A DNA stretch of 64,000 nt from an uncultured Methylopila sp. (GTDB lineage: Bacteria; Pseudomonadota; Alphaproteobacteria; Rhizobiales; Methylopilaceae): assembly GCA_902168115.1 (NCBI GenBank), contig CABHPB010000082.1:1-64000 (forward strand). The letters run 5' to 3'. Numbering within the stretch: the first letter of the stretch is position 1; the number at the start of each line of letters is the position of its first letter. Below the pieces are notes generated by a model that was not told where the DNA came from, did not search any database, and saw only the letters and a program-made list of their open reading frames with translations. This document shows, piece by piece, positions 1,843 through 43,352 of the stretch. The position numbers and the translations under genes are program-made.

Positions 1843-2873
1843 GAGCGGCCCCCGAGATCGCAGGCGGAGCCGCCGTTCGCCATCAGGGGCTTCAGCGCCG
1901 CCATCTGCGGGCGCTCGCCGGCGTCGGTCGGCTCGAGGTTGAACGGATAGTCCCTCGGCCACCACGCGCCCGCGGCCCAGGCGGTCCAGCCGATCCAGGC
2001 GTCGGGCGCGTCGTTCATCTTGCCGACCATGGCCTTAAGGGCGGTGACGCAATCAGGCCTGTCGGAGGCCGCGAACTCGCCGAGGAAGCCGCGCCGGCCG
2101 CCGGCCTTCAGCCAGGCGGTGACGTCGTCGATCGCCTTGAGCGCGCGCTCGGCGCCAGAGCATTCCGGCTGGCGGCCGGAGAAGTCGGCGTCGAGATACT
2201 GGTGGAAGTCGTAGGCCATGCGGCCGAGCGGGTCGGAGACCTTGGCCATCTCGACGTCGTTGCGCCCGACGGCGAGCTCGCTCGACCAGCTGTGGGCGCC
2301 GGTGTAGGCGGTGCCGGGCACGATGATCATCTGCAGCGCGCCGGTCTTGCGGATGGCGTCGACCGCCGCCTGCGAGGCCTTGGCCCAGTCCGCGGCCTGC
2401 ACGTCGTAGGGCTCGTTCATGAGCGAGAAGACGGTGCGGGGATTGCCCTTGTAGTGGGTGGCGAGACGCTTCCAGAGGTCGACGAACTGCGAGACCGGCG
2501 CCTCGGCCGAGCCGATCCGCTTGCCGCGGTAATAGGCGAAGTCGTGCGGGTCGACGATCACCGTCAGGCCAGCCGCGTTCGCCGCCTTCACCGCGCCGTC
2601 GAGGCGGGCGAGTTCGTCCTTGTCGAAGGGCGCGTTCGGCTTCGGCTGCAGCCGCTCCCAGCGGAACGGCAGGCGCACCGCCGTGCCGCCGTTCGCAGCG
2701 AGGCGATCGAAGGCCGCGGCGTCGGGATAGGCGTAGTCGAAGTTCGGGCGGCCGGGCGTCGGGCCGAAGTCGGCCCCAGAGATGTTGGCCCCGCGAAGGC
2801 ACGGCTCGGCGAGGGCCGGCGAGACGGCCGTCGCAAGCGCAAGCGCCGCAGCGAGGGCCGCCCGGGCGCTCAT
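1839..2873 (-). CDS. Secreted glycoside hydrolase family 5 (endoglucanase-like)
   Basis: The 344-residue GH5 (beta/alpha)8 enzyme has a clear signal peptide (residues 1-22, cut after the ALA of SPALA-EP), so it acts in the periplasm or outside the cell. The putative acid/base is E154 in LMNEP and the nucleophile E266 in FLGEF; R67 in VRLPFRW and H110/H224 are the other usual active-site positions. Lying inside the assembly operon, it probably trims or clears the polymer made here, like the glycanases of cellulose, xanthan and holdfast clusters. Both ends overlap their neighbours by 4 bp. The substrate, beta-1,4-glucan or a mixed heteropolymer, is not determined. Confidence 0.88.
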   Translation of the reverse strand: MSARAALAAALALATAVSPALAEPCLRGANISGADFGPTPGRPNFDYAYPDAAAFDRLAANGGTAVRLPFRWERLQPKPNAPFDKDELARLDGAVKAANAAGLTVIVDPHDFAYYRGKRIGSAEAPVSQFVDLWKRLATHYKGNPRTVFSLMNEPYDVQAADWAKASQAAVDAIRKTGALQMIIVPGTAYTGAHSWSSELAVGRNDVEMAKVSDPLGRMAYDFHQYLDADFSGRQPECSGAERALKAIDDVTAWLKAGGRRGFLGEFAASDRPDCVTALKAMVGKMNDAPDAWIGWTAWAAGAWWPRDYPFNLEPTDAGERPQMAALKPLMANGGSACDLGGRS

Positions 2874-4804
2874 TCCGCCGCCACGCTCTGGGTCACGGCC
2901 GGCGGCGCGACGACGCCGGCCAGCGTCGCCAGAAGGCGCGCGCGGGCGCCCTTGTGGGTAAAGTTGTGGTCGGCGTCCATCACCATGGCGCGCCAGACGT
3001 TCGGGTAGTTCGCGACCTTCTTGCCGTCCTCGCCGAAATAGGTGTGGAGCTCGGTGAGGCCGAGGTCGCCCTCGGAATAGACCAGCCAGACGCGCACGCC
3101 GCGCTTGTCGAGCGTCGTGAAGCGACGATGCACCTCGCGGTAGAGCCGGGCCTCCGGCGTCAGTTCGCCGAACAGCGGCGCGAGCTTCACGGCCGCCTTC
3201 CGGAGCAGGCGGTGAGTGACGTAGTGAGCGGCGGCGCCGACGCGCAGCTGGCCCTTGAGCAGGCGCTTCCAGCCGCCGCGCTTCCAGAGCGTCGCGCCGA
3301 AGTCGCCGATCGAGCGGTGCGCGTAGCGCAGCGCCTCGGCGATGTCCTCGCGCGGATCCCAGACGAAGCGCTCGGTGTTGACCATCACCACCTGGTCGAT
3401 GCGATCGTCCTGCACGGCGGCGTTGAAGGCGGCGTAGGCGCCGCTGCAGCGGCCGATGAGGAACGGGCGGTGGAAGCCGAGCTCGGCCATGGCGTCGACC
3501 GCCGCCTTCATGTCGTCGATCTGGGACTGGCTGTAGAGCACCTCGCCCGACATGCCCGGATGCGGGAGACTGTCGCCGATGCCGGCCGCGTCGAGACGCA
3601 GCGAGGGCACGCCGAGGCCGGCGAGCGCGCGCGCCTGCTCGACCGTCGCCCGCCCCCAGCCGATGTGGTAGTCGCGGCCGGCGTTGGCGAAGATCGCGGC
3701 CGGCTGCCCGTTGGCGTGCTCGGGCTCGCACAGCACCCCGAACAGCCGCCCTTCCGGACCGAAGCGGATCGGCCGCTCGCGATAGCCCTCGCCCTGCACG
3801 GGCGCGGGCGCGGCGACGATGGGCGCGGCGCGGCGCGGCAGGAAGGAGCCCGAGCCCGCCTCGATGTCGAGCGCGCCGATCCAGTCGGCGACGGCGTTCA
3901 GCACGGCGTAGGGCGGCTCGGCCTGGGTCGGGTCGGTGGCGAGGATCTCGTAGCCCTCATAGGGCAGAGCCTCGGTCTCGCAGCCGAGCGTCGCAAGGTG
4001 CGCGGCGAAGCGCTCGTCGCCGCCGTGATTGACGCGCGCGACCATCAGCGCGCGTGCGGCCGGGGCCGCGTCGAGCTTGGTCAGGTCGATCGTCTTGACG
4101 GCGGCCGCGCGCGAGGCGTCGAGCGCGATGCCGGCCACCGCGTGGCCGCCGGCGTCGTCCGGATCCGGGGTGATGCCGATCCGGTCGGTCAGCATGCGCG
4201 CCCAGAGCGAGAGCTCCCGGAGATAGATCCGGCCGCTCGTCACCGGCGCCATGAAGACGGTCGCCTCGACCGGCCCGAGATCGCGCGCGCTGAGCGCGGC
4301 GAGCGCGCCGCCAAAACCCTGTCCGACGACGACGATGCGCTCCCGGCCGGTCGCCCAGCGCAGGAAGCGCGCCGCCGCGCGGATCGACTCCAGCCAGTCC
4401 TCGAGCCCCTCGGCCCCGGAGGTCTCCGGCGAGTCGCCGACGCCCGGATAGTCGAAGCGCAGGCAGGGCGAGCCCTTGGCCTGGAGCCGTTCGGCGAGGG
4501 TGCGCCAGGTGGTGCGGACGCACATCTCCTCGTAGCCGATCGCGCCGAGCATCAGCACGGCGACCGGCCCGTCGGCCGGATAGAGCTGGCCGATGCAGTT
4601 TCCGAATGTGACGGGCACGCCGACATGCGCGTCCGGCTGGGTCGTCGCGGCGCCGATCGAGGCCGCGTAACCGCGCACCAGTTCGACCTGTTCCGCGACG
4701 CCGAGGTCTCCGGTTCCGCGCGCCATGGCGCCAGCAAGGTTGAGCATGGGCTGTGTCCTGCGGTCTGCTGCGTCTGCGGTCGAAAGCACGGGCGTTCCGT
4801 TCAT
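2870..4804 (-). CDS. Tandem alpha/beta hydrolase (two domains, one without nucleophile)
   Basis: The 644-residue protein contains two alpha/beta-hydrolase domains (about 60-315 and 340-635) joined by a Pro/Ala-rich linker. In the first, the nucleophile elbow reads GQGFG (161-165), with Gly at the catalytic position. In the second it reads GRCSG (451-455), placing Cys453 at the nucleophile, with a DADHNF histidine near the C terminus. Similar hydrolases occur in exosortase and exopolysaccharide clusters, where their role is unproven; deacylation or ester transfer on the glycan is plausible. No signal peptide is visible, so it is likely cytoplasmic. ATG at 4804 overlaps the flippase stop (ATGA). 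Confidence 0.8.
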   Translation of the reverse strand: MNGTPVLSTADAADRRTQPMLNLAGAMARGTGDLGVAEQVELVRGYAASIGAATTQPDAHVGVPVTFGNCIGQLYPADGPVAVLMLGAIGYEEMCVRTTWRTLAERLQAKGSPCLRFDYPGVGDSPETSGAEGLEDWLESIRAAARFLRWATGRERIVVVGQGFGGALAALSARDLGPVEATVFMAPVTSGRIYLRELSLWARMLTDRIGITPDPDDAGGHAVAGIALDASRAAAVKTIDLTKLDAAPAARALMVARVNHGGDERFAAHLATLGCETEALPYEGYEILATDPTQAEPPYAVLNAVADWIGALDIEAGSGSFLPRRAAPIVAAPAPVQGEGYRERPIRFGPEGRLFGVLCEPEHANGQPAAIFANAGRDYHIGWGRATVEQARALAGLGVPSLRLDAAGIGDSLPHPGMSGEVLYSQSQIDDMKAAVDAMAELGFHRPFLIGRCSGAYAAFNAAVQDDRIDQVVMVNTERFVWDPREDIAEALRYAHRSIGDFGATLWKRGGWKRLLKGQLRVGAAAHYVTHRLLRKAAVKLAPLFGELTPEARLYREVHRRFTTLDKRGVRVWLVYSEGDLGLTELHTYFGEDGKKVANYPNVWRAMVMDADHNFTHKGARARLLATLAGVVAPPAVTQSVAAE

Positions 4805-7521: not shown

Positions 7522-8346
7522 TTAGCTTTCCGGCCGCAGGCGGCGTGGCGCGAGATCGACCGCCTCCGAGGCGCGGCGAAGCTTGTGCCAGGCGATCCAG
7601 CCGAAGAAGCGCACCACGTCGATCGTGTAGCGCCGGCCGAGACGACGCGGCTCCTGGACGAGGCGGAACAACCACTCGGCGCGAAGGGCTCGCACGACGC
7701 GCGGCGCGCGCACGACGCGGCCCGCGATGAAGTCGAACAGCGCGCCGACCATCATGACCGCCGGCGCCTCGATGTCGGCGGCGTGCGTCGCCACGAAGTT
7801 CTCCTGCCGCGGGTTGCCGAGCGCGACGAGCACGAGGTCCGGCTGCGCGGCGTTGATCTCTGCCACCACCTCGCCCGCCTGCTCGTCCGCGAAATAGCCG
7901 TCGCGCACGCCGACGATCCGGTGGCGCGGAAAGCGCTCCTCAAGCCGCCGGCCCGCCTCGTCGGCGACGCCGGGCCTTGCGCCGAGCAGGAAGATCCTGA
8001 GCTCCTGCCGGGTCGCCCCGAGCAGCGCCGGCGTCAGGTCGGTGCCGTTGAGGTTCTGCTCGAAGCGGCGGCCGTTGATCAGGCGCGAGCAGATGTCGAC
8101 GCCGACGCCGTCATTCAGCACAAGGCATCGCGACAGCGTGCGGGCGTAGTCCCGCGACTCGAAGGCCTGCAGCATGGTGTTGGCGTTGCAGAAGGCGACG
8201 CGGATCTGCCGGCGGTCCTCGAAGGACTTCTGGATCGCCTGGATCGCCCGGGCGCGGTCGACATACGGGATCTCGAGCCCGCCGACCCGCAGATACGGGC
8301 CGATCCACCGACGTTCCGGCCCCTGATAGATCGCCTGATTGCCCAT
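7522..8346 (-). CDS. WecG/TagA/CpsF family glycosyltransferase (GT26)
   Basis: The 274-residue GT26 enzyme belongs to the family that adds ManNAc, ManNAcA or another hexose to the lipid-linked primer sugar, an early step of polymer assembly on the cytoplasmic face. Diagnostic motifs are FCNANT near residue 52, LNDGVGVD (77-84, with the catalytic Asp), the FLLGARPG strand and GNPRQE near 177. It lies 98 bases before the GT4 gene at 7424, with the same orientation, and about 380 bases from the divergent chain-length gene, so the intervening AT-rich region probably drives both sides. No strong Shine-Dalgarno sequence is visible before the ATG. Confidence 0.92.
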   Translation of the reverse strand: MGNQAIYQGPERRWIGPYLRVGGLEIPYVDRARAIQAIQKSFEDRRQIRVAFCNANTMLQAFESRDYARTLSRCLVLNDGVGVDICSRLINGRRFEQNLNGTDLTPALLGATRQELRIFLLGARPGVADEAGRRLEERFPRHRIVGVRDGYFADEQAGEVVAEINAAQPDLVLVALGNPRQENFVATHAADIEAPAVMMVGALFDFIAGRVVRAPRVVRALRAEWLFRLVQEPRRLGRRYTIDVVRFFGWIAWHKLRRASEAVDLAPRRLRPES

Positions 8347-8720: not shown

Positions 8721-8768
8721 GGCGTGGCCCAAGGCGTGTCCCAAGGCGGGTCCCACGGGATGGCCCAA
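8721..8768 (+). repeat. Four tandem 12-bp repeats spanning the start codon
   Basis: Units 8721-8732, 8733-8744, 8745-8756 and 8757-8768 are imperfect copies of GGCGTGGCCCAA. They encode the N-terminal AQG-VSQG-GSHG-MAQ sequence of the chain-length protein, and units 1, 2 and 4 each contain a potential start codon (GTG, GTG, ATG). The unit is four codons, so copy-number changes keep the reading frame. Confidence 0.75.
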
Positions 8769-10829
8769 TCCTTTCCGGCGGCGGTGCGCGAACCCGCGCC
8801 GCCCTCGGTCGAGGAGACGGTCGCCAGCACGGCCTCGGACTTCGCCGAGCTCGCCCGGCGCCGGGTCAAGCTGATCGCGGCCACCGCGGCCGCGACGACG
8901 CTGCTCGCCATGGCCTTCCTCGCGCACCAGACGCCGCTCTACCGCGCGACCGCCGAGATCCTCGTCGATCCGCAGGCGCTGCAGGTCGTCGGCAAGGACA
9001 TCGTGCGGCAGGACACCGCGGCCTCGATCGACTTCGCCAATGTCGACAGCCAGGCGATGGTGATGGTCTCCGGCTCGCTGCTGAACCAGCTGATCGACGA
9101 GCTCGACCTCGAATCCGACCCGGTGTTCCGCGCGCAGCCCGGTGTCCTCAGGCGCCTGCTGGGCGGCGACACGCCGACCCAGTCGCGCGCGACCACCATC
9201 GAGGCGCTGCGCAAGGCGGTCGTGGCGCGCCGCGTCGACAACTCGCTCGTGTTCGAGATCACCGTCTCGCATCCGGACGCCGAGAAGTCGGCGCTGATCG
9301 CGAACCGCCTCGCCTCGCTCTATCTCAAGCAGGGCAACGACGGCCGCGGCCAGGCGGTCAAGCGCGCCGGCGACACGCTGCTCGGGCAGCTCTCGAGCCT
9401 GCGCAAGCAGCTCAACGACGCCGAGGTGGCGGTCGAGAAATTCCGCGGCGACAACAACCTGATCTCGACCGGCGAGGCCGGCCTGATCGTCAATCAGCAG
9501 TTGCGCGATCTCTACGGCCAGATCACGCAGGCCGAAACCGAGACCGCGCGACTCGCCGCCCGGCGCGACCAGGTCGCGAAGATCGGCCCGGACTCGCTGC
9601 TGTCCGACCGGATCTCGGAGGCCCTCAACGCTCCGACCATCATCGCGCTGCGCAGCCAGTACGCCCAGACCGCGCAGGAAGCCGCGCGCATGGCGGAGAC
9701 GCTGCTGCCGCGCCATCCGCGCCTCGTCGAGGCCCGCGCGGAGCTCGCCGCCGCCCGCAGGGCGCTGTCGGACGAGCTCGACCGGGTGCGCGCCTCGATC
9801 GTGCAGGACTACGCTCAGGCGCAGGACAACCTGAAGAAGCTGAGGGACCGCGCCGCGGCGCTCACCAAGAACCAGGTGTCGAGCAGCGAGAGCGAGATCC
9901 GGCTGCGCCAGCTCGAGAGCGAGGCCGAGGCGATCCGCACCGTCTACAACGCCTCCCTCGGCCGCGCGAAGGAACTCGAGCAGCAGCAGCAGATCCAGAC
10001 CAACAACTCCCGCCTGATCTCGGCCGCGTCGGTGCCGCTCAAGCCCTCCAAGGCGCCCGCGCTGATCGTCGCGCCGGCCGCGCTGGTGTTCGGCGCGTGT
10101 CTTGGCCTTGCGCTCGGCTTCCTGCTCGACCTGCTGCGCGGCGCCGCCCCGAACGCCCGCTCGGCCGCCGAAATGCTCGGCGTCGAGAGCTACGCGACGC
10201 TGAGGCGTCGCGGCTCCGGCCCGGCGCTCGACGAGCGCGATCCCGCCGCGCTTCTCGCGGTCGCCCGGCGCCTGCAGGGCCGCGCCGGAACCAAGTCGCC
10301 CGCCGTCGTCGTCATGGCCGGAGCGCATGATCTCGACCCGGCGCTCCGCCGCAACGTCATCCAGGGCCTCGCCCGGGCGCTCGCCGGCATCGGCGAGGGT
10401 GTCTGGATCTGCGAGCAGACCGACCGCGACGAGCCGATGCATGTCGAGCGCATCCAGCCCATCCACGCCGCCTCGCACGAGGCGACGACGACCGGCGGCC
10501 CGCTGATCGAGGCCGCCAAGCGCGCCCGCGCCGCGCGCGTCGTCGAGGCGCTTCAGGGCCGCACGGGCGAGCGCGTCGAGGGGGCTGAGTTCCTTCTCCT
10601 GTCCGACGACGACGCCTCCGGCCTCGCCGCCTCGGCGGCGATGTCCGACGCCGTGGTCGTCCTGTTCGAGCCCGGCCGCACGCGCCGCCGGACGCTGCGC
10701 GACCTCGTCGCGATGCTCGATCCGGCGGGCGACCGCATGGCGGCGATGATCGCGGTCGAGCCGTCGCGTCCGTCCCGGATCGCGGTTCCGGAGTTCGCGG
10801 CTCGGCGCTTCCGCAAGGCCGCGGCGTGA
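8724..10829 (+). CDS. GumC/Wzc-like polysaccharide chain-length protein, kinase domain degenerate
   Basis: The 701-residue inner-membrane protein has a Wzz domain (first TM about 55-72, periplasmic part to about 140), a long coiled coil (210-400), a GNVR-type segment and a second TM near 440-470 with a Pro-rich lead-in (PLKPSKAPALIVAPAAL). It should set polymer length and contact the outer-membrane exporter. The C-terminal cytoplasmic region (475-701) matches the BY-kinase position but has no Walker A loop (SPAVVVMAGAHDLDP where GxxxxGKS is expected) and no terminal Tyr cluster, so kinase activity is unlikely. GTG at 8724 follows GGAG at 8712 by 8 bases; ATG at 8760 is an alternative. Confidence 0.87.
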   Translation: MAQGVSQGGSHGMAQSFPAAVREPAPPSVEETVASTASDFAELARRRVKLIAATAAATTLLAMAFLAHQTPLYRATAEILVDPQALQVVGKDIVRQDTAASIDFANVDSQAMVMVSGSLLNQLIDELDLESDPVFRAQPGVLRRLLGGDTPTQSRATTIEALRKAVVARRVDNSLVFEITVSHPDAEKSALIANRLASLYLKQGNDGRGQAVKRAGDTLLGQLSSLRKQLNDAEVAVEKFRGDNNLISTGEAGLIVNQQLRDLYGQITQAETETARLAARRDQVAKIGPDSLLSDRISEALNAPTIIALRSQYAQTAQEAARMAETLLPRHPRLVEARAELAAARRALSDELDRVRASIVQDYAQAQDNLKKLRDRAAALTKNQVSSSESEIRLRQLESEAEAIRTVYNASLGRAKELEQQQQIQTNNSRLISAASVPLKPSKAPALIVAPAALVFGACLGLALGFLLDLLRGAAPNARSAAEMLGVESYATLRRRGSGPALDERDPAALLAVARRLQGRAGTKSPAVVVMAGAHDLDPALRRNVIQGLARALAGIGEGVWICEQTDRDEPMHVERIQPIHAASHEATTTGGPLIEAAKRARAARVVEALQGRTGERVEGAEFLLLSDDDASGLAASAAMSDAVVVLFEPGRTRRRTLRDLVAMLDPAGDRMAAMIAVEPSRPSRIAVPEFAARRFRKAAA

Positions 10830-12088
10830 CCATCGCGGCCGCGCGCGCGGCGCCGGCCTCGCTGCGCGACCGGCTGCACCCGACGGCGACGCTCGCGGTC
10901 CTGCTCGGCGCACTGACTTTCAACGCGGGCCTGTGCTTCCTCAACACCTCGATGCTCGCCGTCACCGACACGATGGTGATGGCGATGGAGGGCCTGCTGC
11001 TCGCGCTCGCCTTCAGTTTCGCGCTCGGCCGCTCGGTGCCGGTCTATCTGGTGCTGATCGTGTTCCTCACCTACGCCGCGCTGCTGATGGCGCTGAGGCC
11101 GCTGATCGACCCGAAGGCGGTGCGCGACATCTTGATCCCGATCGCCTTCTACGCGCTCGGGCGCCGGATCCCGGACATGAAGCTCGCCGACAAGGCGGTG
11201 TTCTGGAGCGCGGCGATCGTGCTCGCGATGGGCTGCTTCGAGTACTTCGCGCTCGACGTGTTCACGAGCTTCTTCAACGTCATCAAGTACTATGTCGCGC
11301 GTGGCACTGTGGCGCCGAGCGACGTGTCCGAGCAGACCGGCGCGCTGTTCCAGAGCGGCGTCAGGCCGGACGCCCGGGCGCTGCTGCCGTTCCTCGGCCA
11401 GCACCGGGTTTCGTCGGTGTTTTTGGAGCCGGTCTCGGCCGGCAACTTCGGCGCGATCGTCTATCTCTGGGCGCTCTACCGCAAGAACATGAAGCTGCGC
11501 TGGCTCGTCGGCCTGATGGGCGTCGCCTGCATCATCCTCGCCGACGCGCGTTTCGGGGCCTACGTCTCGCTCTGCGCGACGGCGGTCTATCTCGTCGCCC
11601 GCCACCTGCCGCGCGCGCCCTTCGTGGCGGCGCCCTTCCTGATCCTTTCGGTTCTCGCGGTCTACGGGCTGACGACGGCCGAAAAGGTCTGGTCGAACGA
11701 CATCGGCGGCCGGATGCTCTGGACGTCGATGCTGCTGACGTCGCTGACGCCCGAGGCCGTGTTCGGCCTGTCGCCCGACAAGCCGTTCCTGTCGGATTCC
11801 GGCTACGCCTACACGCTGAACCAGATCGGGCTGATCGGCTTCGCCGGCCTCTGGTCGCTGTTCGTGCTGCTGCCGCAGGAGACGCGGCGCGCCTGGCCGT
11901 ACAAGGCCGCCGCCATCACCTACATCCTGCTGCTGCTGCTGATCTCGGACTCGGTCTACACGATCAAGACCGCCGCCCTGTTCTGGTTCCTGCTCGGCAC
12001 CAGCGACGGCGCGCCGGCCGAGGCGGCGCGACCGCGGCCCGTCCGCCGTCAGGCGACGGCGCGCGAGCCTGTCGGCGCCGGAGCCTGA
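10826..12088 (+). CDS. O-antigen ligase/polymerase-like membrane protein (Wzy candidate)
   Basis: The 420-residue integral membrane protein has roughly 10-12 hydrophobic helices and a large periplasmic loop (about 150-210), the architecture of Wzy polymerases and WaaL/ExoQ ligases. The family has little sequence conservation, so the call rests on topology, an Arg-containing loop (around SGVRPDARALLPFLGQHR) and position after the chain-length gene. It would polymerise flipped repeat units in the periplasm. The GTG start overlaps the upstream stop (GTGA). Its last 40 bases overlap the convergent acyltransferase gene. The C-terminal 30 residues are Arg/Ala/Pro-rich and probably cytoplasmic. Confidence 0.75.
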   Translation: MTIAAARAAPASLRDRLHPTATLAVLLGALTFNAGLCFLNTSMLAVTDTMVMAMEGLLLALAFSFALGRSVPVYLVLIVFLTYAALLMALRPLIDPKAVRDILIPIAFYALGRRIPDMKLADKAVFWSAAIVLAMGCFEYFALDVFTSFFNVIKYYVARGTVAPSDVSEQTGALFQSGVRPDARALLPFLGQHRVSSVFLEPVSAGNFGAIVYLWALYRKNMKLRWLVGLMGVACIILADARFGAYVSLCATAVYLVARHLPRAPFVAAPFLILSVLAVYGLTTAEKVWSNDIGGRMLWTSMLLTSLTPEAVFGLSPDKPFLSDSGYAYTLNQIGLIGFAGLWSLFVLLPQETRRAWPYKAAAITYILLLLLISDSVYTIKTAALFWFLLGTSDGAPAEAARPRPVRRQATAREPVGAGA

Positions 12089-13233
12089 GCCGTGGCGGGG
12101 ACCGCAAGGGTCTTCGCCGGCGCCTGACGCGAACCGCGCCGGCGCAGCTTCAGGATCGGCTTCTCGACGAAGCGCCAGGACAGCACGGCGACCGGCGCGA
12201 CCACCGCGAGCGACAGCAGGAAGAAGACTGCGCCGTTCTTCAGGTCGGGGAAGGCGGCGACGAGCGACTGCTGCAGCGGGAAGGCGTAGAGATAGATCCC
12301 GTAGGAGTAGTCGTTGCCCTTGAGGGCCGACACTTCAAGGGACGGCGACAGCCCGGCGGCGATCACGACATAGGCGTAGAGCGGCGCGGTCGCGAGATTG
12401 TAGAGCGGGTTCTGCGCCCACTCCGGCGTCCCGAACGAGGAGATCGCGAAGTAGAGCGCGACCGCGGCGAAAGCGAAGTCCCGCCGGCACGGGATCGCCC
12501 GGCGGTAGTGGTAGAACAGCATCCCCAGCATGAAGATCGGGATCAGCCGCGCCGCGCCCCGCGTCACGAAGACATAGGACAGCGCCCGGTCGAACGGCAG
12601 CGGCGAGCCGAGCCGCTCGAACAGGTAGATCGCGGCCGCGACCGCGAACAGGCCGATCGTGATCGCAAGCAGCGCGCCGCGCCTGCGGTGGAGGCCGAAC
12701 GCCATCAGCAGCGCGACGCCGAGATAGCAGGACACCTCGTGCGGCACGGTCCACAGCGAGCCGTTGACGATCGGGCCGACCGGGTCGGTGGCGAAGAGGC
12801 CCGGCAGTTCCGGGCGCGTCAGGCCGACGATGTTCAGGAAATAGGACGCGAACTTCGGATCGGCGAAGTAGGAGCCGAGCGGCAGGGTCGTGAGAAGCGG
12901 ACCGAGCAGAAGCGCGGCGAGAAAGATCGCGACGGCGAGAGCCGGCAGGATCCGCAAGAACCTGTTGGTCAGGAACTGGCCGACGCTGAGCCGCTCGGCG
13001 CTCGCAGCGATCAGGAAGCCGGACAGCGCGAAGAACATCGGCACCGCCGCGATGTCGATCGCCCAGCGCCCGAACGGCGCCCCCGGAAAAGCCGGGTCGC
13101 TGTCCGCGATCCCGCCGACCAGCGAGGTGTGGATGAAGACGACGAGGACCGCGAGCGCAAGCCGCGTCAGGTCGAAACCGGGCCCCACGCCGCCGAAGCG
13201 GTCGAGCCGATCTCCGATTGTCTCGCGCGTCAT
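12049..13233 (-). CDS. Acyltransferase family 3 (OafA/YrhL-like)
   Basis: The protein has about 394 residues from ATG 13233, and 426 if a GTG at 13329 is used. This inner-membrane acyltransferase O-acetylates or otherwise acylates surface polysaccharides. FDLTRLALAVLVVFIHT is the hallmark first helix with its catalytic His; PMFFALSGFLI, the NRFLRILPAL Arg motif, the SLWTVPHEVSCY segment and the terminal SWRFVEKP motif follow in family order. I prefer 13233 because it puts the first helix about 15 residues from the start, as in homologues; neither candidate has a strong ribosome-binding site. It probably decorates the polymer made by the neighbouring genes. Confidence 0.9.
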   Translation of the reverse strand: MTRETIGDRLDRFGGVGPGFDLTRLALAVLVVFIHTSLVGGIADSDPAFPGAPFGRWAIDIAAVPMFFALSGFLIAASAERLSVGQFLTNRFLRILPALAVAIFLAALLLGPLLTTLPLGSYFADPKFASYFLNIVGLTRPELPGLFATDPVGPIVNGSLWTVPHEVSCYLGVALLMAFGLHRRRGALLAITIGLFAVAAAIYLFERLGSPLPFDRALSYVFVTRGAARLIPIFMLGMLFYHYRRAIPCRRDFAFAAVALYFAISSFGTPEWAQNPLYNLATAPLYAYVVIAAGLSPSLEVSALKGNDYSYGIYLYAFPLQQSLVAAFPDLKNGAVFFLLSLAVVAPVAVLSWRFVEKPILKLRRRGSRQAPAKTLAVPATAQAPAPTGSRAVA

Positions 13234-13710
13234 GAGCCGGCGCCCCGCATCCAGGTACGTGAAAACCTCGGCTTCGATCGCTTGGATTTGAGTTAAATCC
13301 GGCGCCGGATCAACGATCCGCGAGAACACGGACGAAACGTCGCCAATGCAGGGTTAATTCATACGAATAAAATTCGGATGCATCTCATTGCGCCCTTGGC
13401 GCCCAATCACCCGATATTTAGCTCAATTTTGAGGAAAAACCACCACGACGACTCGCGAGACGGCATGTCGTTTACACAAAATATACTATGATACGTCGCA
13501 TTTACTGCTTTATTTTTCGAAGTTCAGCGCAAGGCCGCGTTAAACCTCCTGCTGTATGACTTTCCTCCGACACGCAACCAGCGACGCCCGAGACGCTCGG
13601 CAAAGGCTCTCGGCAAGACGAAGCGCACGCGTGACAGGGATCTTTCAACGGCGGAAGGCCGCGCAAGCGCTCGACGAGCGGCCGCGGCTCCGGGACAGGA
13701 GCATCGGGCA
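13234..13710. promoter_or_regulatory. AT-rich intergenic region with 21-bp imperfect palindrome
   Basis: This gap separates the divergent acyltransferase and carrier-protein genes. At 13360-13380 there is a dyad, CAT-A-CGAAT-AAA-ATTCG-G-ATG, suited to a dimeric regulator. Further on, 13470-13520 is strongly AT-rich (ACAAAATATACTATGATAC) and is the most likely core-promoter area. AGGAG at 13698-13702 is the ribosome-binding site of the carrier-protein gene. I found no convincing additional gene here. Confidence 0.4.
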
Positions 13711-13959
13711 ATGAAGAGCACCATTCGCGACATCCTGGCCAAGCACGGCCGCCTTCCGGCGCCGGTCGAAGGCCTTTCGGACGACGCCGACCTCCACGCC
13801 GCCGGCCTCACCTCCTTCGGGTCGGTCGAGGTGATGATGGCGCTCGAGGAAGCGTTCGGCATCGAGTTTCCCGACCGCATGCTCAACCGCCGCAACTTCT
13901 CCTCGATCTCCGCGATCGAGCAGGCGGTGATGACGGTCCAGGCCGAGGAAGCCGCGTGA
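13711..13959 (+). CDS. Acyl/aminoacyl carrier protein
   Basis: The 82-residue four-helix carrier protein has Ser35 in the GLTSFGSVEVM motif, aligned with the DSL serine that receives 4'-phosphopantetheine. The acidic MALEEAFGIEFPD helix II/III region is typical. The TSF variation in place of DSL, and the two genes downstream, suggest a dedicated carrier for an amino acid rather than the fatty-acid synthase ACP. ATG at 13711 is preceded by AGGAG with 8-base spacing, and the stop overlaps the next start (GTGA). It is the first gene of a coupled operon extending to 17332. Confidence 0.9.
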   Translation: MKSTIRDILAKHGRLPAPVEGLSDDADLHAAGLTSFGSVEVMMALEEAFGIEFPDRMLNRRNFSSISAIEQAVMTVQAEEAA

Positions 13960-15188
13960 CCTCCGCTCTCGCCCGGCGCGACGAAATCGCCGAGGCCCTC
14001 GCGCTCGTCCCGCCCGCGGTCGACGAGCGCGCGCTGGTCAAGGCGGCGCGCGCCATTGCGTCCAAGATCGCGGCGCCGAACGCCGCCGACGTCGACGAGA
14101 ACGCCCGGTTCCCGTCGGAGACCTTCGCCGCGCTGAAGGAAGCCGGCCTGCTCGGGATCATGGTCCCGCAGGCGCTCGGCGGCCAGGGCGCGAGCGTCGC
14201 CTGCGTCTCGGAGATCTGCGCGGTGCTGGCGCAGGCCTGCGCGAGCTCGGGCATGATCTACTCGATGCACCAGATCAAGATGTCGAGCCTGACGGTGCAT
14301 TGCCTCGACAGCGAGTGGCACCGCGGCTTCATGCGCGCCTGCGCCGAGGAGCAGCTGCTGCTCGCCTCCGCGACCACGGAAGGCGGCGGCGTCGGCGGCG
14401 ACATGCGCCAGTCGATCTGCGGCGTCCAGCGCGACGGCGACATGTTCGACCTCGCCAAGGAGGGCTGCCTGATCTCCTACGGCGCCTATGCCGACGCGAT
14501 CCTGATCACGGCGCGCCGCACCCCGGACGCGCCGGCCTCCGACCAGGTGATGGCGGTGATGCGCGCCGACCAGTACCGGCTCGAAAAGACCGGCGCCTGG
14601 AACACGATGGGCATGCGCGGCACCTGCTCGGACAACTTCACCTTCGCCGGCCGCGCGCCGGCCGAGCAGATCATCCCGCTCGCCTTCGCCGACATCTCGG
14701 CCCAGTCGATGCTGCCCTACGCGCATCTGCTGTGGGCGTCGGTCTGGTACGGCATCGGTTCCGACGCGGTGGCGCGGTCCGAGGCCTTCGTGCGCGCCGA
14801 GGCCCGCAAGCGCCCCGGCGCGACCCCGCCGAGCGCGCTGCGCCTCGCCGAGCTGCTCACGCTTCAGCAGAGGTTCAAGTCGCTCGTCGTCGCCGGCATC
14901 GACCGCTACGAGCGCGCCAAGGACGACGCCGACGAGCTAACCTCGATCGGCTTCGGCGTCGCGATGAACGCGATCAAGATCTCCGCCAGCCAGTCCGCCG
15001 GCGAGATCGTCAACGCGGCGTTCCTGATCTGCGGGATCATGGGCTACCGCAACGACAGCCCCTACAGCCTCGCCCGCCCGATGCGGGACGCGCTGTCGGC
15101 GCCGATCATGATCAACAACGACCGCATCCTCGGAAACGTCTCCAACCTGCTGGCCGTGTACAAGCACGACGCCAGCCTGCTGAGGTGA
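13956..15188 (+). CDS. Acyl-CoA dehydrogenase-like flavoprotein
   Basis: The 410-residue protein has the acyl-CoA dehydrogenase fold: an all-alpha N-terminal domain, the [15 protein letters not shown] beta-domain region that contacts [16 protein letters not shown], and a C-terminal helical domain ending in [21 protein letters not shown]. By context its substrate is probably an aminoacyl or acyl group on the adjacent carrier protein rather than a CoA ester, as for flavoproteins that oxidise prolyl-S-PCP. The segment where medium-chain enzymes have their catalytic Glu (IYEG) reads IMINND, so the base must be elsewhere or the chemistry differs. The GTG start overlaps the carrier-protein stop. 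Confidence 0.85.
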
Positions 15189-15195
15189 TCAGACC

Positions 15196-16134
15196 ATGTG
15201 CGTGATCTGCGACGAGGTCGAACCGACCACCCTGCTCGAGCAGCTGATCTCCCACGGCATCCTCATCGACACCGGCATCGACGGCATCTATGGCCGCTCG
15301 GGCGTGTTCGAGGACGTCATCGCCCGGTTCGAGGACCTGGTGACGCGCACCGGAGCGACCGGCGCGAACCCGATGTCGCCGGAGGTGATGCGCTTCCCGC
15401 CGGCCATGAACCGCTTCCACTTCGAGCGGTCCGGCTACATGAAGTCGTTCCCGCAGCTCGCCGGCACGATCCATTCCTTCATGGGCGATGATCGCGGCCA
15501 CTTCGATCTGCTCGAAAAGCTCTCGAACAACGAGGACTGGACCGGCCAGCAGAAGACCACCGGCGTCGTGCTGACCCCGGCCGCCTGCTACACGCTCTAT
15601 CCGATCGTCGCCAAGCGCGGCCCGCTCAAGGCCGAGGGCGCGCTGTTCGACCTGCAGAGCTACTGCTTCCGCCACGAGCCCTCCAAGGACCCGGCGCGCA
15701 TGCAGATGTTCCGCATGCGCGAGTTCGTCCGCTTCGGCAAGCCCAAGCAGGTGCAGGAGTTTCGGGCCGGCTGGCTCGAGAACGGCGAGACCATGATGAA
15801 GAAGCTCGGCGTGCCGATCCACGTGGATCTGGCCAACGACCCGTTCTTCGGGCGCTCGGGACGCATGCTGAAGAACAACCAGCGCGACCAGGGCCTCAAG
15901 TTCGAGATGCTGATCCCGATCGAGAGCGAGGAGAAGCCGACCGCCTGCCTCTCCTTCAACTATCATCAGGACCATTTCGGCACGACCTGGGGCCTGATCG
16001 ACGCAGACGGCGAGACCGCGCACACGGCCTGCGTGGGCTTCGGCCTGGAACGCGTCGCGCTCGCTCTGTTCAAGCATCACGGCTTCGACGTCGAGGCCTG
16101 GCCGAAGGCCGTGCGCAAGGCTCTGTGGCAGTGA
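15196..16134 (+). CDS. Amino acid--[acyl-carrier-protein] ligase (class II aaRS-like)
   Basis: The 312-residue homologue of the catalytic core of atypical seryl-tRNA synthetase lacks a tRNA-binding domain. Such enzymes, first described in Bradyrhizobium, activate a small amino acid (glycine or alanine) with ATP and transfer it to the phosphopantetheine of a dedicated carrier protein. Cys131, Glu176 and Cys279 form the expected Cys-Glu-Cys zinc site. Class II motif 2 is [10 protein letters not shown] and motif 3 [12 protein letters not shown] (282-292). An AGGTGA ribosome-binding site overlaps the stop of the flavoprotein gene. Amino-acid choice cannot be read by eye; the physiological product of these ligases is, to my knowledge, unknown. 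Confidence 0.93.
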
Positions 16135-16316
16135 CGATCGGCGGAACCTCCCGGCGCGAGCCGCTGCCGACGCAGGCGCTCGACAAGCGACCGGCGCAGC
16201 GGCTGCGCGCCCATGCGCATGGCGCGATGACGGCGCTGCCGGCGGTCTCGGCCGGCGGCTTCGCGCCCGTCCGCCAGTCCGGCGGCGCGTCCGTGCCGAT
16301 GAGGATGCCGCGATGA
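16131..16316 (+). CDS. Small coupled ORF, 61 codons, unknown function
   Basis: The frame starts with a GTG that overlaps the ligase stop (GTGA) and ends with a TGA that overlaps the start of the DUF1839 gene (ATGA), exactly filling the gap. About 56 of 61 codons end in G or C, as in neighbouring real genes. The peptide is Arg/Ala/Pro-rich, has no hydrophobic helix or signal peptide, and begins [14 protein letters not shown] recognise no family. It could be a real small protein, a translational bridge, or an old gene remnant. The double overlap argues for translation at least as a coupling device. Confidence 0.5.
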
Positions 16317-17332
16317 CCGCCGTGCCGCTTCGCGCCCATCCCGCGACGCCGGCTGCGCCGCGCGTGCTGCCGATCGACCCGATCGGCTGGAAGAACCACG
16401 CCATGCACGGGGCCGACCGCAGCTGGCCGCAGACCAACTGCTACGCCGACCTCTGGATCGAGGTGCTGCACGCCATGGGCGCGGAGCCCGCGGCGGCGTT
16501 CGGCTTCGCGATCAGCCAGGATTTCGAGGGCGACCAGTTCACCTTCTTCAAGCCGCCGCTCGAGGACCTCGAGTCGCTCTACGGGCTGCGCGTCACCGAA
16601 CTCGCGCTCTACGACGACCTCGTCTCCCATCTCGAAACGCAGGCCGCGCTCGGGCGCATCGTGCTGATCGAGCTCGACAGCTTCTACCTGCCGGACACGC
16701 AAGGGGTGACCTACCGAGTCGCGCACGGCAAGACGACGGTCGCGATCAACCGCATCGACCGCGCCGCCAAGGAGCTCGACTACTTCCACAACGAGGGCTT
16801 CTTCCGCGCGACCGGCGAGGACTTCGACGGGCTGATGCGGCTGCTGCCGGGCCAGGCGCGCGAGGACACGCTGTTCCCCTACGCCGAGGTCATGCGGCTG
16901 CCGAAGGAGCGCGCCTCCTCCGCCGAGACCGCCGCCGCGGCGCTCGCGCTGCTCGTGCGCCACATCCGCCGGCGTCCCGAGACGAACCCGCTGATCGGCT
17001 TCCGCGCCGTCGTCGAGGCGCAGGGCGCCGCGCTGAAGGACCGGCCGACGGAAAGCTTCCACCACTACGCCTTCAACACGCTGCGCCAGCTCGGCGCCAA
17101 TTTCGAGCTGTTCGCGAGCCATCTCGAGTGGCTTGGGCGCGAGGGCCTCGAGGGTCTTGGAGAGGCCGAAGGCGCCGCCCGCTCGATCGCCGAAGGCGCC
17201 AAGATCGCGCAGATCGTCATGGCGCGCTCGGTGCGGCAGCAGTCCTTCGGCCGGCTCGACGGCGCTCTCGCGGTGATCCAGTCAGATCACGACAGGCTGG
17301 TCGCAGCGCTGACGGCCCGGTTTCCGGACTGA
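16313..17332 (+). CDS. DUF1839 family protein
   Basis: The 339-residue cytoplasmic protein of unknown function matches the DUF1839 family, which I associate with aminoacyl-carrier-protein ligase operons in rhizobia. Visible features are a DPIGWKNHAMHGADR-type N terminus, QTNCYADLWIEVLH (possible active-site Cys at about residue 42), FEGDQFTFFKPP, IELDSFYLPDTQG near 120-135, and an alpha-helical C-terminal half. The N-terminal C...H...D pattern loosely resembles papain-like or butirosin-BtrH-type transferase folds, so it could move the aminoacyl group from the carrier protein to an acceptor; that is speculation. It is the last gene of the coupled operon, followed by a palindromic repeat. Confidence 0.85.
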   Translation: MTAVPLRAHPATPAAPRVLPIDPIGWKNHAMHGADRSWPQTNCYADLWIEVLHAMGAEPAAAFGFAISQDFEGDQFTFFKPPLEDLESLYGLRVTELALYDDLVSHLETQAALGRIVLIELDSFYLPDTQGVTYRVAHGKTTVAINRIDRAAKELDYFHNEGFFRATGEDFDGLMRLLPGQAREDTLFPYAEVMRLPKERASSAETAAAALALLVRHIRRRPETNPLIGFRAVVEAQGAALKDRPTESFHHYAFNTLRQLGANFELFASHLEWLGREGLEGLGEAEGAARSIAEGAKIAQIVMARSVRQQSFGRLDGALAVIQSDHDRLVAALTARFPD

Positions 17333-17527: not shown

Positions 17528-19954
17528 ATGGCGACCATCCGCGCCTTCTCCGGCCGTTCGCGCGAGCAGCTTGGCGGCTGGACCTTCCGCGCAACGGCGC
17601 CCGACGCCGCGCCGACCCCGGCCGAGCTGCCGCAGGACGACTGGGCGCTGTTCGTCGTCCCCGGCACGGCCGCCGGCGCGCTCCGCGCGGCGGGCAGGCT
17701 GACCGACGCGACGGCGCAGCATATCGACTTCAAGGACCACTGGATCCGGACAAGGCTCGACCGGCCGCTCGCCGGGACGCTCGAGTTCGAGGGGCTGGCC
17801 GTCGTCTCGGAGATCTGGATCGACGGCGGAAAGCGCGCCGAAAGCCGCTCGATGTTCGAGCCGGTGGAGCTTGCGGTCGACCTGCCCGCCGGCGCCGAGA
17901 TCGCGGTCGCGTTCCGCGCGCTCGGCCCGAAGCTCGCCGCCATGCCGAAGCGCTCGCGCTGGCGCCCTCAGATGATCCAGCCGAACGGCCTGCGCTTCTT
18001 CCGCACGACCGCGCTCGGCTCGACGCCGGGCTGGAGTCCTGCCGGCCGCCCGACCGGTCCCTGGCGGCCGGTCACGCGGCTCGACGGCGCGCCGGCGCCG
18101 CAGGTCGACGTGCGGGCGAGCTACGCCGGCGAGGTCGGGCGGCTGGCGATCGCGATCGACGCTTCGCCTGACGCGGACGGGACCGTCTCGTGCGCCGGCT
18201 TCAGCACGCCCCTTTTTGCGACCGACGGCGGCCGTCTGGTCGCCGAGCTCGCCTTGCCCGGCGTCGCGCCGTGGTTTCCGCACACCCACGGCGAACCGAT
18301 CCTGCACGACCTGAAGGTCACCGTCGGCGGCGAGACGCTGGACCTCGGCCGCGTCGGGTTCCGGTCGATCGGGATCGACCGCGACGTCGACGGCGACGGC
18401 TTTGGGCTCGTCGTCAACGACGTTCCCGTCTTCTGCCGCGGCGCGTGCTGGTCGAGCGCGGACGCCGTGTCCCTCGCCGGCTCGCGCGAAGCCTACGAGC
18501 CGTGGCTGCGGCTGGCGGCCGAGGCGGGCATGAACATGGTCCGCGTTCCCGGCGTCATGGCCTACGAGACGAACGACTTCTTCGGTCTCTGCGACGAGCT
18601 CGGCCTGCTGGTCTGGCAGGAGGCGGCGCTCGCCAACTTCGACTATCCGCAGGCCGACGAGGTTTTTCGCGAAAGCGTCCGGCGGGAGGCCGAGGCCTTC
18701 CTCGACCGAACGCAGACGCATCCCTGCCTCGCCGTATTTTGCGGCGGCTCGGAGGTTTTCCAGCAGGCGGCGATGCTCGGCGCACCGCCGGAGCTCTGGG
18801 GCGGTCCGGTGTTCGACGAGGTTCTGCCGGGCGCGATCGCGAAGCTGAGGCCCGACCTCGTCTATGTGCCGAATTCGCCGTCCGGCGGCCCTCTCCCCTT
18901 CGTCGTCGACCGCGGCGTCGGGCACTACTACGGCGTCGGGGCCTATCGCCGGCCGCTCGACGACGCCCGCCGCGCGCGCGTGCGCTTCGCCTCCGAATGC
19001 CTCGCCTTCTCGAACGTGCCCGAAGACGTCTCGCTCGCGAAGGCGAAGCTGGCGCCGGTCGTCCATACGCCGGAGTGGAAGCGCGGCGTGCCGCGCGACA
19101 TGGGCGCGTCCTGGGACTTCGAGGACGTCCGCGACCACTATGTCGAGCAGCTTTTCGGCGTCTCCGTCCTCGCCCTCAAGCGCGAGGAGCCGGAGCGCTA
19201 TCTCGCGCTGTCGCGGGCGGCGGTCGCGGAGGTGATGGAAGAGACCTTCGCCGAGTTCCGCCGGCCGGGCTCGCCGACGCGCGGCGCGCTGGTCTGGCTG
19301 CTGCAGGACCTCATGCCGGGCGCCGGCTGGGGCGTGATCGCCGTGGACGGCGAGCCGAAGTCGGCCTGGCACGGACTGAAGCGCGCCTTCCGTCCGGTGC
19401 AAGTCTCCGTCACCGACGAGGGGACCAACGGGCTTGCAATCCATCTCCTCAACGAACGCCCGGAGCCGTTCGAGGGGACGCTGTCCCTCACCTGCTGGCG
19501 CGACGGCGAGACGCCGGTGATCCGCGCCGAGGCGCCGGTCGCCATCGCGCGGCAGGAGCAGAAGACGATTTCGGCCTTCGACCTGATCGGCCGCTTCTTC
19601 GACGTGACCTACGCCTACCGCTTCGGCCCGCCCGGCCATGACGCGACCTCGGTCGCGCTGAGGAACAAGGACGGCGCGACGGTCGCGGAGGCGTTCCATT
19701 TCCCGACGGGGCGCGGGAACGCCCGCTGCAAGCTGGGGCTGTCCGCCCGGATCGAAGGTGATTCCCTCTACGTCTCAACCGAACGCTTCGCGCAGTCCGT
19801 GCACGTCGCGGACGACGGGATGCGGCCGGCCGAAAACTGGTTCCACCTCGCGCCGAGCGTGGAGAAGCGGATCGCCCTCGCCCCCCGCCGCGACGGCGCG
19901 AAGCCGGGCGGCGTGGTCCGCGCGGTGAATGGGCTCGACGAAGCGGGTTACTGA
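17528..19954 (+). CDS. Glycoside hydrolase family 2, beta-mannosidase-like
   Basis: The 808-residue protein has GH2 architecture: an N-terminal sugar-binding jelly-roll (about 1-150), an immunoglobulin-like domain, a (beta/alpha)8 barrel (about 290-600) and C-terminal beta domains. The likely acid/base is the Glu in FCGGSEV (equivalent to the NE motif) and the nucleophile the Glu in FASECLAF. DLMPGAGWGVIAVDGEPKS resembles the beta-mannosidase W-x-D region. There is no signal peptide, so it is probably cytoplasmic. I start at ATG 17528, since upstream codons translate a repeat. Its target may be an oligosaccharide of the neighbouring polymer or an acylated glycan made with the carrier-protein operon. 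Confidence 0.82.
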   Translation: MATIRAFSGRSREQLGGWTFRATAPDAAPTPAELPQDDWALFVVPGTAAGALRAAGRLTDATAQHIDFKDHWIRTRLDRPLAGTLEFEGLAVVSEIWIDGGKRAESRSMFEPVELAVDLPAGAEIAVAFRALGPKLAAMPKRSRWRPQMIQPNGLRFFRTTALGSTPGWSPAGRPTGPWRPVTRLDGAPAPQVDVRASYAGEVGRLAIAIDASPDADGTVSCAGFSTPLFATDGGRLVAELALPGVAPWFPHTHGEPILHDLKVTVGGETLDLGRVGFRSIGIDRDVDGDGFGLVVNDVPVFCRGACWSSADAVSLAGSREAYEPWLRLAAEAGMNMVRVPGVMAYETNDFFGLCDELGLLVWQEAALANFDYPQADEVFRESVRREAEAFLDRTQTHPCLAVFCGGSEVFQQAAMLGAPPELWGGPVFDEVLPGAIAKLRPDLVYVPNSPSGGPLPFVVDRGVGHYYGVGAYRRPLDDARRARVRFASECLAFSNVPEDVSLAKAKLAPVVHTPEWKRGVPRDMGASWDFEDVRDHYVEQLFGVSVLALKREEPERYLALSRAAVAEVMEETFAEFRRPGSPTRGALVWLLQDLMPGAGWGVIAVDGEPKSAWHGLKRAFRPVQVSVTDEGTNGLAIHLLNERPEPFEGTLSLTCWRDGETPVIRAEAPVAIARQEQKTISAFDLIGRFFDVTYAYRFGPPGHDATSVALRNKDGATVAEAFHFPTGRGNARCKLGLSARIEGDSLYVSTERFAQSVHVADDGMRPAENWFHLAPSVEKRIALAPRRDGAKPGGVVRAVNGLDEAGY

Positions 19955-34883: not shown

Positions 34884-34903
34884 CGCTGGAGGCGAGGACA
34901 CCG

Positions 34904-36604: not shown

Positions 36605-37070
36605 ACCGGCCGCGCCGTAACATTCGGCGCCGAATTATTTCAAAGCTGAAGCAATTTCGGGCGTAAGGGGCCACCTCCGGACGTGGTCGACGCGCACGCC
36701 GGGGCCACGACACAGGCGGCCGGCATCCGGCCCGCCGGATCGCGGCGCCCGGGGCCGCAGGCGAAGAGATTGAAATCGATAGATGATTTTCTGGACTGCG
36801 CGCCCGGAGCCGCGTCGTTTCTCTTCAGGCCGGCGCGGGCCAGATCTGCGAAATCGTCCTTCGGGCATTTGCGCAACACCTCCTTAACAAACCTTTCCGG
36901 GCGCCTACCGGGGCCGCCTCGACTCATGATTCAGTAAGGAGATCGGCATGTAACATGCTGCATTGATTAGTGTTTCCGGAAGTCTCCGGCGAACTTTACA
37001 TGGCGACTTCGCCTACCTAGGTTCCGGTCGCTGAGAAAGGCTTGCACTGGCGTAAAGCCAAGGCAATGAG
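36605..37070. promoter_or_regulatory. 466-bp intergenic region before the ACP/synthase pair
   Basis: No gene is convincing here. The last 190 bases (36880-37070) are distinctly AT-richer than the flanks, with TTAACAAACC, TGCATTGATTAGTG and AACTTTACATG, and probably contain the promoter for the two-gene unit starting at 37071. AAGG at 37059-37062 is the only ribosome-binding-like sequence. The size of the leader allows a regulatory site, but none is recognisable. Confidence 0.4.
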
Positions 37071-37322
37071 ATGAGTGAAGATCAGACAGCGTTGTTGAAC
37101 GAGGTTTCAGACGTTCTCGAAAGCGTTCTGAACAAAAAGGTCGAGCTAAAGCCCGAGATGAATATTGTGAATGACCTCGGTCTCGACTCCATCGCCGTGA
37201 TGAATTTCACGATGGCGCTGGAAGATAAGTTCGACATCTCGATCCCGCTGAATGACATGGCCAGCGTCGTGACGGTTCAGGATCTGCTGAACACGCTCGA
37301 GACGCTGCGGAGCGCTGCGTAA
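37071..37322 (+). CDS. Acyl carrier protein dedicated to the synthase
   Basis: The 83-residue carrier protein has Ser40 in GLDSIAVMNF as the phosphopantetheine site and an acidic helix II (MALEDKF). Its stop overlaps the next start (TAATG), tying it to the alpha-oxoamine synthase, as with the AcpR-Spt pair of alphaproteobacterial sphingolipid loci. Codons are noticeably AT-richer than in neighbours (AAT ATT, GTT TCA, AAA AAG), which may reflect high expression or a different history. It likely carries the fatty acyl chain supplied by the ligase at 34904. Confidence 0.93.
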   Translation: MSEDQTALLNEVSDVLESVLNKKVELKPEMNIVNDLGLDSIAVMNFTMALEDKFDISIPLNDMASVVTVQDLLNTLETLRSAA

Positions 37323-41553: not shown

Positions 41554-41708
41554 TCCAGTTGCGTTTCCATCGTGGCCGGTCCAATCCGGCGTGTCGTTTA
41601 GCGACGAATTCCCTATGGCGCCACCGCAGCGTCCTCGAATGCGCCGTAACAGCGTATAGAAGCTCAGCGCACACCGTCCGCGCCGAGACAGAGATTGACG
41701 ACGCCGAT

Positions 41709-43351: not shown

Positions 43352-43352
43352 G

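Follow-up and report, generated by a model that had tools for sequence, protein, structure and literature searches.

Predicted carrier-protein-dependent aminoacylation of an amino sugar in a conserved operon of an uncultured Methylopila sp.

Described systems and the conserved gene set

The closest described relatives of the system considered here are the Bll0957/Atu2573-type amino acid:[carrier protein] ligases, which resemble class II aminoacyl-tRNA synthetases (aaRSs). In a note in proof, Iyer et al. (2010) reported such a ligase alongside genes for an acyl carrier protein (ACP), a redox enzyme, a glycosidase, surface-sugar functions and a conserved open reading frame (ORF; Atu2574), and from this context they predicted that a modified amino acid is passed to a surface sugar in amide linkage (PMC2922099, in excerpt). 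The same text argued against nonribosomal peptide synthesis, the first proposal for these ligases. In the lincosamide synthetase, according to the excerpted account, the papain-like cysteine enzyme CcbD (LmbD) forms an amide between proline bound to a carrier protein (CP) and an amino sugar's amino group by a Cys-His-Glu ping-pong mechanism (PMC12945683). A papain-like fold has likewise been assigned to the family DUF1839, for which a C(T/S)H active site was proposed and a glycan role guessed from context (PMC10318531, in excerpt). Here, an operon containing a CP, a flavoprotein, an aaRS-like ligase and a DUF1839 protein was analysed in a stretch of 64,000 nucleotides (the window; contig CABHPB010000082.1, positions 1 to 64,000) from an uncultured Methylopila sp. 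The genes are predicted to encode a CP aminoacylation pathway that delivers a small alpha-amino acid, probably oxidised, to the amine of a cytoplasmic amino sugar, which would most probably serve as a unit of a Wzx/Wzy-type surface polysaccharide, a reading to which we assign a probability of roughly 0.58.

The operon lies on the forward strand and begins with the CP gene (13711..13959; NF005480, E-value 6.7e-32; PF00550, 1.2e-9), whose phosphopantetheine site Ser35 is among the columns at least 97 % conserved in 78 aligned CPs. The flavoprotein gene (13956..15188; PF02771, 3.6e-17) has a GTG start and a four-base overlap with the CP stop, and is followed by the ligase (15196..16134), the DUF1839 gene (16313..17332; PF08893, 4.4e-117) and a GH2-like glycosidase gene (17528..19954; PF22666, 28.3 bits with a cut-off of 27), the start of which was placed by alignment at 17528 rather than 17402. 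A sixth gene stands apart from the operon on the reverse strand (2870..4804) and encodes a fused double alpha/beta hydrolase. The sequence-only reading had also counted a 63-residue ORF (16125..16316, forward strand) as a member of the operon. It is probably not a gene, because its frame is broken in the nearest relative by several indels not divisible by three and because the median spacing of 17 bases between the ligase stop and the first aligned DUF1839 base, over 57 named loci with both genes called, leaves no room for it. That relative, the nearest named one among the matches listed, is Chenggangzhangella methanolivorans (L084), whose ligase is 95 % identical; its locus shows frame breaks in the flavoprotein and DUF1839 genes (8753-12161), due to sequencing error or decay.

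A relative of the ligase was found to be encoded in at least 577 stretches of the genome collection (577 of 593 pattern-matched stretches). The best 80 of these, being the best, are biased toward the type of the window; 71 of these 80 named loci carried CP, flavoprotein, ligase, DUF1839 and GH2 in one order on one strand. Of the remaining nine, six were cut by a contig end, two (L112 and L136) had no GH2, and one (L097) had the CP and ligase only; in this 20-kb locus a type A ligase (defined below) stands with the CP at 9526-10891, and no flavoprotein, DUF1839 or GH2 match was found. The gene set is thus no orphan, contrary to how it had first been described, and it continues with GH2 and a co-occurring double hydrolase. 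That the CP, flavoprotein, ligase and DUF1839 protein form a unit was borne out by the family matches and the conserved order. The composition matches the Bll0957/Atu2573-type systems in ligase family, ACP, redox enzyme, conserved ORF, glycosidase, surface-sugar genes and the logic of amide transfer, and Atu2574 is presumably a DUF1839 protein, judging from its place in the set. The central idea of the sequence-only reading is not new, since transfer to a surface sugar was already predicted in 2010 (PMC2922099).

Among 398 Pseudomonadota genomes, the ligase was over its cut-off in 28, and the flavoprotein gene adjoined it in all 28 loci. Sixteen of these loci, the window included, were of a type (type A) with both DUF1839 and GH2 (16/16), and all 16 DUF1839-bearing genomes carried the ligase. 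The other 12 (type B) had a CP-like ORF, the flavoprotein and the ligase; in 10 of the 12, a small ORF whose family clusters with CPs points away from the flavoprotein gene. The double hydrolase was present in 17 of the 398 genomes, namely all 16 with DUF1839 and one more, G322. The sample's only other genome from the genus of the window (G095) gave no match for ligase, DUF1839 or double hydrolase. In 150 genomes of G322's family, perhaps of Burkholderia type, the double hydrolase was found in 61, the ligase in 62 (61 over cut-off) and DUF1839 in 59, with all three in 54 genomes and none in 85 (pairwise Fisher P ≤2.3e-31, relatedness ignored). The sequence-only reading had named rarity of co-occurrence as evidence against itself; the genes were found to co-occur.

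For these comparisons, rows were kept in the alignments by length limits (flavoproteins 90/103, DUF1839 78/80, GH2 83/90, ligases 93/95, CPs 78/83), and those of flavoproteins and ligases take in type B rows. In the wider set of 96 type A loci, L056 and L135 are duplicates whose ligases are identical, and several loci are short contigs. Gene calls were made by a simple GC-position heuristic, which misses or misframes genes, such that some loci have no called ligase where tblastn finds one. Scans of the operon region with Rfam and for promoters and terminators gave nothing useful. The intergenic segment before the operon (13330-13700) has 54 % G+C, compared with 70 % in the operon and the window, and is a probable regulatory region without a sigma-70-like match. 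It is bordered by a gene for an Acyltransferase_3 membrane protein on the opposite strand (12049-13329), which also adjoins the operon in Bosea-type loci such as L089 and L090.

Transferase fold, catalytic cysteine and exchange of the loading enzyme

The model of the DUF1839 protein, with a predicted local distance difference test score (pLDDT) of 91.3, matched CcbD with Z 19.5 (VIA; root-mean-square deviation 3.6, 288 residues), AziU3/U2 with Z 18.6 and CtaG with Z 17.4 (both VIA). The matches to these three kinds of structure fell at Z 15.8-19.5, and the next unrelated row was at 9.0; CtaG and AziU3 are named here after their PDB titles. On the modelled fold, the DUF1839 protein looks like a CP-dependent transferase, as had been suggested from sequence. 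The predicted reaction would resemble that of CcbD/LmbD in that a papain-like cysteine enzyme passes a CP-bound amino acid to an amino sugar, and would differ in its aaRS-like loader and its surface-polysaccharide setting, with no sequence similarity found between the two systems. The excerpted classification of DUF1839 agrees on the papain-like fold (PMC10318531); CcbD is not named in that excerpt, and the nearest solved structures are those identified here.

The candidate catalytic residue, Cys43, is present in 75 of 78 aligned DUF1839 rows. Of the three rows without it, one is misframed (L084, with the cysteine in another frame) and two (L053 and L062) come from loci with a second copy that keeps it. 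A similar pattern was observed in the 150 genomes of G322's family, 24 of which carry two or three DUF1839 copies. All 24 have at least one copy with Cys43, Thr129 and His138, and 22 have another copy without Cys43; in the remaining two, both copies keep Cys43 (G483 and G511), with one copy of G511 lacking Thr129 and His138. The changed copy was the one adjoining the ligase in 10 of the 22 genomes, so the intact copy need not be that of the operon. Second copies in G421, G450, G488 and their relatives lack Cys43, keep the rest of the family pattern and lie on other contigs than the intact copy; these are possibly non-catalytic partners or altered enzymes.

Within this family, Cys43 was read in every one of the 24 multi-copy genomes, whereas the single-copy genomes are represented by 9 of 35. 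Among these nine, six kept it (G249, G324, G467, G471, G503 and G522) and three had lost it (G402, G426 and G486), and these three are all of the genomes among the 150 with DUF1839 but no ligase over cut-off: no ligase match was obtained for G402 and G486, and a weak match for G426. In G486 the cysteine of the double hydrolase is also lost, while G402 keeps it. Every examined copy without Cys43 was accompanied by an intact second copy or came from a genome with no ligase over the cut-off, and these coupled losses tie Cys43 to the ligase step.

The ligase scored 485.4 bits against NF005479 (cut-off 357) and matched the solved entries 4h2w (3.8e-95) and 3mey (Bll0957; 1.5e-90). It comprises 312 residues, with the class II core as its single Pfam match and without a tRNA-binding domain. 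Cys131, Glu176 and Cys279, which we take to be zinc ligands, are invariant in 21 aligned ligases. Residue 281 is Gly in 81/81 type A and Ala in 12/12 type B ligases and may be a switch between Ala and Gly as substrates; this leans on the specificities of the ligase types, the solved type B member being glycine-specific. In some type B loci of one genus, a 312-residue protein adjoins the ligase (L064, 8522-9460); it appears GNAT-like by eye, gave no Pfam or NCBIfam match at 0.001 and may be a type B transferase. A distant ligase subfamily of about 400 residues (E-values of about 1e-42 to 1e-51) has a different gene neighbourhood and is spread over several families of the phylum (L077, L078, L079 and L082).

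The suggestion that an aaRS-like ligase stands in the place of an adenylation (A) domain was supported by genomes such as G322. In G322, G508 and G412, an A domain of the nonribosomal peptide synthetase type is directly followed by a same-family CP and by the double hydrolase (in G322, A domain 346 bits with a cut-off of 317, CP NF005480 4.5e-32). The double hydrolase also directly follows the ligase in one locus (L238), in a genome without a DUF1839 match. G402 gave no ligase match, though double hydrolase, CP, flavoprotein and DUF1839 are all present; it encodes an A domain, 52 % identical to that of G322, about 15 kb from its DUF1839 gene on the same contig. In G486, which also has no ligase match, no such A domain was found at 1e-60. 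Since the double hydrolase follows A domains as well as ligases, with the same CP family, the two loading enzymes seem exchangeable. The A-domain specificity residues, read by eye against what we take to be the GrsA motif, have Asp at the first position, which suggests an alpha-amino acid as substrate and nothing more.

Oxidation, acceptor and the double hydrolase

The flavoprotein model (pLDDT 88.5) has an acyl-CoA-dehydrogenase fold (Z 41.5 to 2jif) without the usual glutamate base. At the position that we take for the glutamate of short-chain acyl-CoA dehydrogenases it has Ile386, with Ile or Val in 90/90 homologues, and the position taken as the isovaleryl-type base is Ser, Ala, Thr or Cys; His105, His257, Asn388 and Arg390 are invariant. 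The family profile ranked short-chain acyl-CoA dehydrogenases first (6.3e-26), followed by amino-sugar nitrososynthases (2.4e-19 to 1.8e-18) and the prolyl-ACP dehydrogenase 4irn (1.5e-12). The nitrososynthase matches are presumably KijD3, DnmZ and ORF36-type proteins, the term nitrososynthase being the table name of 3mxl. As the glutamate is replaced and nitrososynthases rank above the prolyl-ACP dehydrogenase, oxidation at N or at C-alpha-N is favoured over alpha,beta-desaturation with moderate confidence.

It had been proposed that the operon mirrors the logic of the route from prolyl-peptidyl carrier protein (prolyl-PCP) to pyrrole. The prolyl-PCP dehydrogenases (RedW, PigA and 4irn) share with it a flavoprotein of this fold adjoining a CP and an amino-acid loader, but the analogy is weak beyond that: the RedW model (NF045652, cut-off 650) gave the window's protein 36.6 bits, 4irn ranks below the nitrososynthases, and glutamate is absent from the short-chain-type base position. 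A true dehydrogenase, as in the sequence-only reading, would yield a dehydroalanyl-CP or an alpha-imino acid, and thereby a pyruvoyl-like or dehydro unit. Its fold, the leading place of short-chain acyl-CoA dehydrogenases in the profile and the presence among the fold matches (Z 40.3) of ColB1 (7xp7, titled for assembly-line-tethered cysteine dehydrogenation) are all in its favour; yet the missing base, the substitutions at the isovaleryl-type position and the nitrososynthase matches speak against it, as does the occurrence of the same flavoprotein family with type B ligases, because glycine, the substrate of the solved member, has no beta carbon. This alternative is accordingly regarded as unlikely, but worth keeping in view. 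In a Bradyrhizobium phaR mutant, the first fold-change of both bll0957 (ligase) and bll0958 (acyl-CoA dehydrogenase) was 3.0, with values of 2.5 and 1.7 in the second column (PMC10888616, in excerpt); the equal first values fit joint use of the two enzymes.

The acceptor was considered from the neighbouring genes. Between the left end of the window and the operon, Pfam matches identified on the reverse strand two GT4 glycosyltransferases (640-1965 and 6171-7424), a Wzx-like protein (4801-6174) and a WecG/TagA protein (7522-8346), and on the forward strand a Wzz/GNVR protein (8724-10829), followed by a protein without a Pfam match (10826-12088). At least one of these six neighbour families, five with polysaccharide matches and one without assignment, was found within about 10 kb in 41 of 96 type A and 3 of 12 type B loci. 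The link to polysaccharides by position is therefore modest and only suggestive, which counts against the proposed pathway, and exopolysaccharide is a plausible acceptor.

The low share of type A loci with such neighbours would also suit a free small metabolite, a lincosamide-like aminoacyl amino-sugar, as the product in place of a decorated polysaccharide. The closest folds of the DUF1839 protein point the same way, CcbD, AziU3/U2 and CtaG belonging to small-molecule antibiotic pathways, and in several Rhizobiaceae loci the flanks hold EF-P and two genes that are EpmA/EpmB-like by eye, not glycan genes. Against this, Wzx-like, Wzz/Wzc, Wza-like or glycosyltransferase genes surround the operon or the double hydrolase in the window and in L235, L241 and L182, and the hydrolase halves have exosortase-A-associated proteins as their closest named relatives. 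A free metabolite is considered improbable.

Neither half of the double hydrolase reaches the cut-off of the exosortase-A-associated protein that it resembles, which is hydrolase 2 for one half (TIGR03101, 3.4e-13, 49.7 bits versus 202.75) and hydrolase 1 for the other (TIGR03100, 5.9e-29, 101.2 versus 168.45). In the C-terminal half, the nucleophile elbow reads GxCxG with Cys453 in 47 of 48 rows, a set that takes in the window, loci holding the same gene twice and two XrtA loci; in the N-terminal half, no Ser was seen at the elbow in the rows inspected. A Cys nucleophile suggests a role in acyl transfer. In one exosortase-A locus (L200), a ligase_PEP_1 gene is divergent from a small ORF matching the CP profile (8e-7), after which hydrolase 2 and hydrolase 1 follow in the order of the fusion, hydrolase 1 with a Cys elbow. 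This XrtA module resembles the present set in its CP-like ORF and in the order of its hydrolases and differs in having separate hydrolases and another ligase. It was whole in only one of five ligase_PEP_1 loci (L199-L203): L201 and L203 have one hydrolase-like ORF each, and L199 and L202 none. In the open-licence literature, no paper was found that combines the elements of this module.

Of the 96 type A loci, 52 had a called double hydrolase gene no farther than about 10 kb from the operon; none of the 12 type B loci did. In the GH2 protein, E451 and E532 (850-residue ORF numbering), which we take to be the catalytic residues of the family, are conserved, and 25 N-termini judged by eye had no evident signal peptide. 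The two enzymes might be linked to the operon merely through shared polysaccharide clusters, without acting on an aminoacyl product. This would fit the separation of the double hydrolase from the operon in the window, its location on a different contig from the ligase in G107 and G191, and the loci L112 and L136, where DUF1839 is present and GH2 was not found. It fits poorly with the presence of the double hydrolase tracking DUF1839 even where unlinked, with its position adjoining the ligase in L238 and with the loss of its cysteine together with ligase and Cys43 in G486, and we consider such a passive linkage improbable. A short nonribosomal peptide as product is very improbable: the apparent exchange of A domain and ligase speaks for it, but no condensation domain was seen among the annotated neighbours, most neighbours being unannotated, the operon contains a glycosidase, and the excerpted 2010 text argued against a peptide (PMC2922099).

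Proposed pathway and its standing

In the proposed aminoacylation pathway, the ligase would adenylate an amino acid and load it onto the phosphopantetheine of Ser35, an activity reported for homologues. The flavoprotein would oxidise the carrier-bound amino acid, with alpha,beta-desaturation less likely than a reaction at N or C-alpha-N. Cys43 of the DUF1839 protein would take over the acyl group and hand it to an amine as CcbD does, a step to which the fold and the coupled losses point. The double hydrolase may be a second Cys-based acyltransferase or an editing enzyme on the same carrier, and the cytoplasmic GH2 protein would trim or rearrange a glycan intermediate, which is the weakest step.

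Several further observations weigh against this pathway. DUF1839 and GH2 were found in 0/12 type B loci. The ligase and double hydrolase occur without DUF1839 in G407, G438, G441 and G460, and DUF1839 with a ligase (or weak ligase) occurs without the double hydrolase in G426, G471 and G511 at the cut of 1e-60, which missed a copy in G471 that adjoins the operon (L242). The sequence profile of DUF1839 found no CcbD, AziU3 or CtaG in the PDB at E-values up to 10, the best match being vinculin (1.1), so that the link to CcbD is one of fold only, and Cys43 is a putative counterpart of the CcbD cysteine. Dehydrogenase and monooxygenase folds match the flavoprotein alike at Z 38.8-41.5 and do not separate the two functions. 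The activity, substrate and product of the pathway are predicted throughout.

More generally, a loader that is either aaRS-like or an A domain, a flavoprotein without the base and two Cys acyltransferases of different folds might together tag glycans, placing an oxidised aminoacyl amide, for example an N-hydroxy- or iminoacyl amide, on an amino sugar and in a surface polymer. This extension is tentative and on balance doubtful, and we know of no bacterial polysaccharide with such an amide.

Two regions elsewhere in the window are recorded here. At 34820-44483 lies a probable bacterial sphingolipid region, with a fatty acyl-AMP ligase (34820-36604), an ACP (37071-37322), a serine palmitoyltransferase (37322-38626; NF047599, 8.5e-203), a CDP-alcohol transferase (40420-41553) and an LptF/LptG-like segment (42131-44483). 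At 46357-51816, a divergent gene pair encodes an ATP-dependent DNA ligase (TIGR04120) and a ligase-associated DEXH helicase (TIGR04121), which carry the NCBI name of DNA-damage response proteins.

Relative to the 2010 prediction, and within the open-licence literature, five points appear new: the template structure for the DUF1839 protein, the addition of a sixth gene, the exchange of the ligase with A domains, the coupled cysteine losses and the lack of the base in the flavoprotein. The excerpted account of the Bll0957/Atu2573-type systems makes no mention of a double hydrolase, a CcbD-like structure, an A-domain exchange or coupled cysteine losses (PMC2922099). The ligase is common, being over cut-off in 28/398 Pseudomonadota genomes and 61/150 genomes of G322's family. 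For the earlier prediction there is now a solved structure to serve as template, a loader that seems exchangeable, one more partner gene and defined candidate catalytic cysteines, which reduces the question to a short biochemical experiment. If the proposed pathway is correct, these bacteria would decorate their surface sugars by a thioester route of the kind used in lincosamide synthesis.

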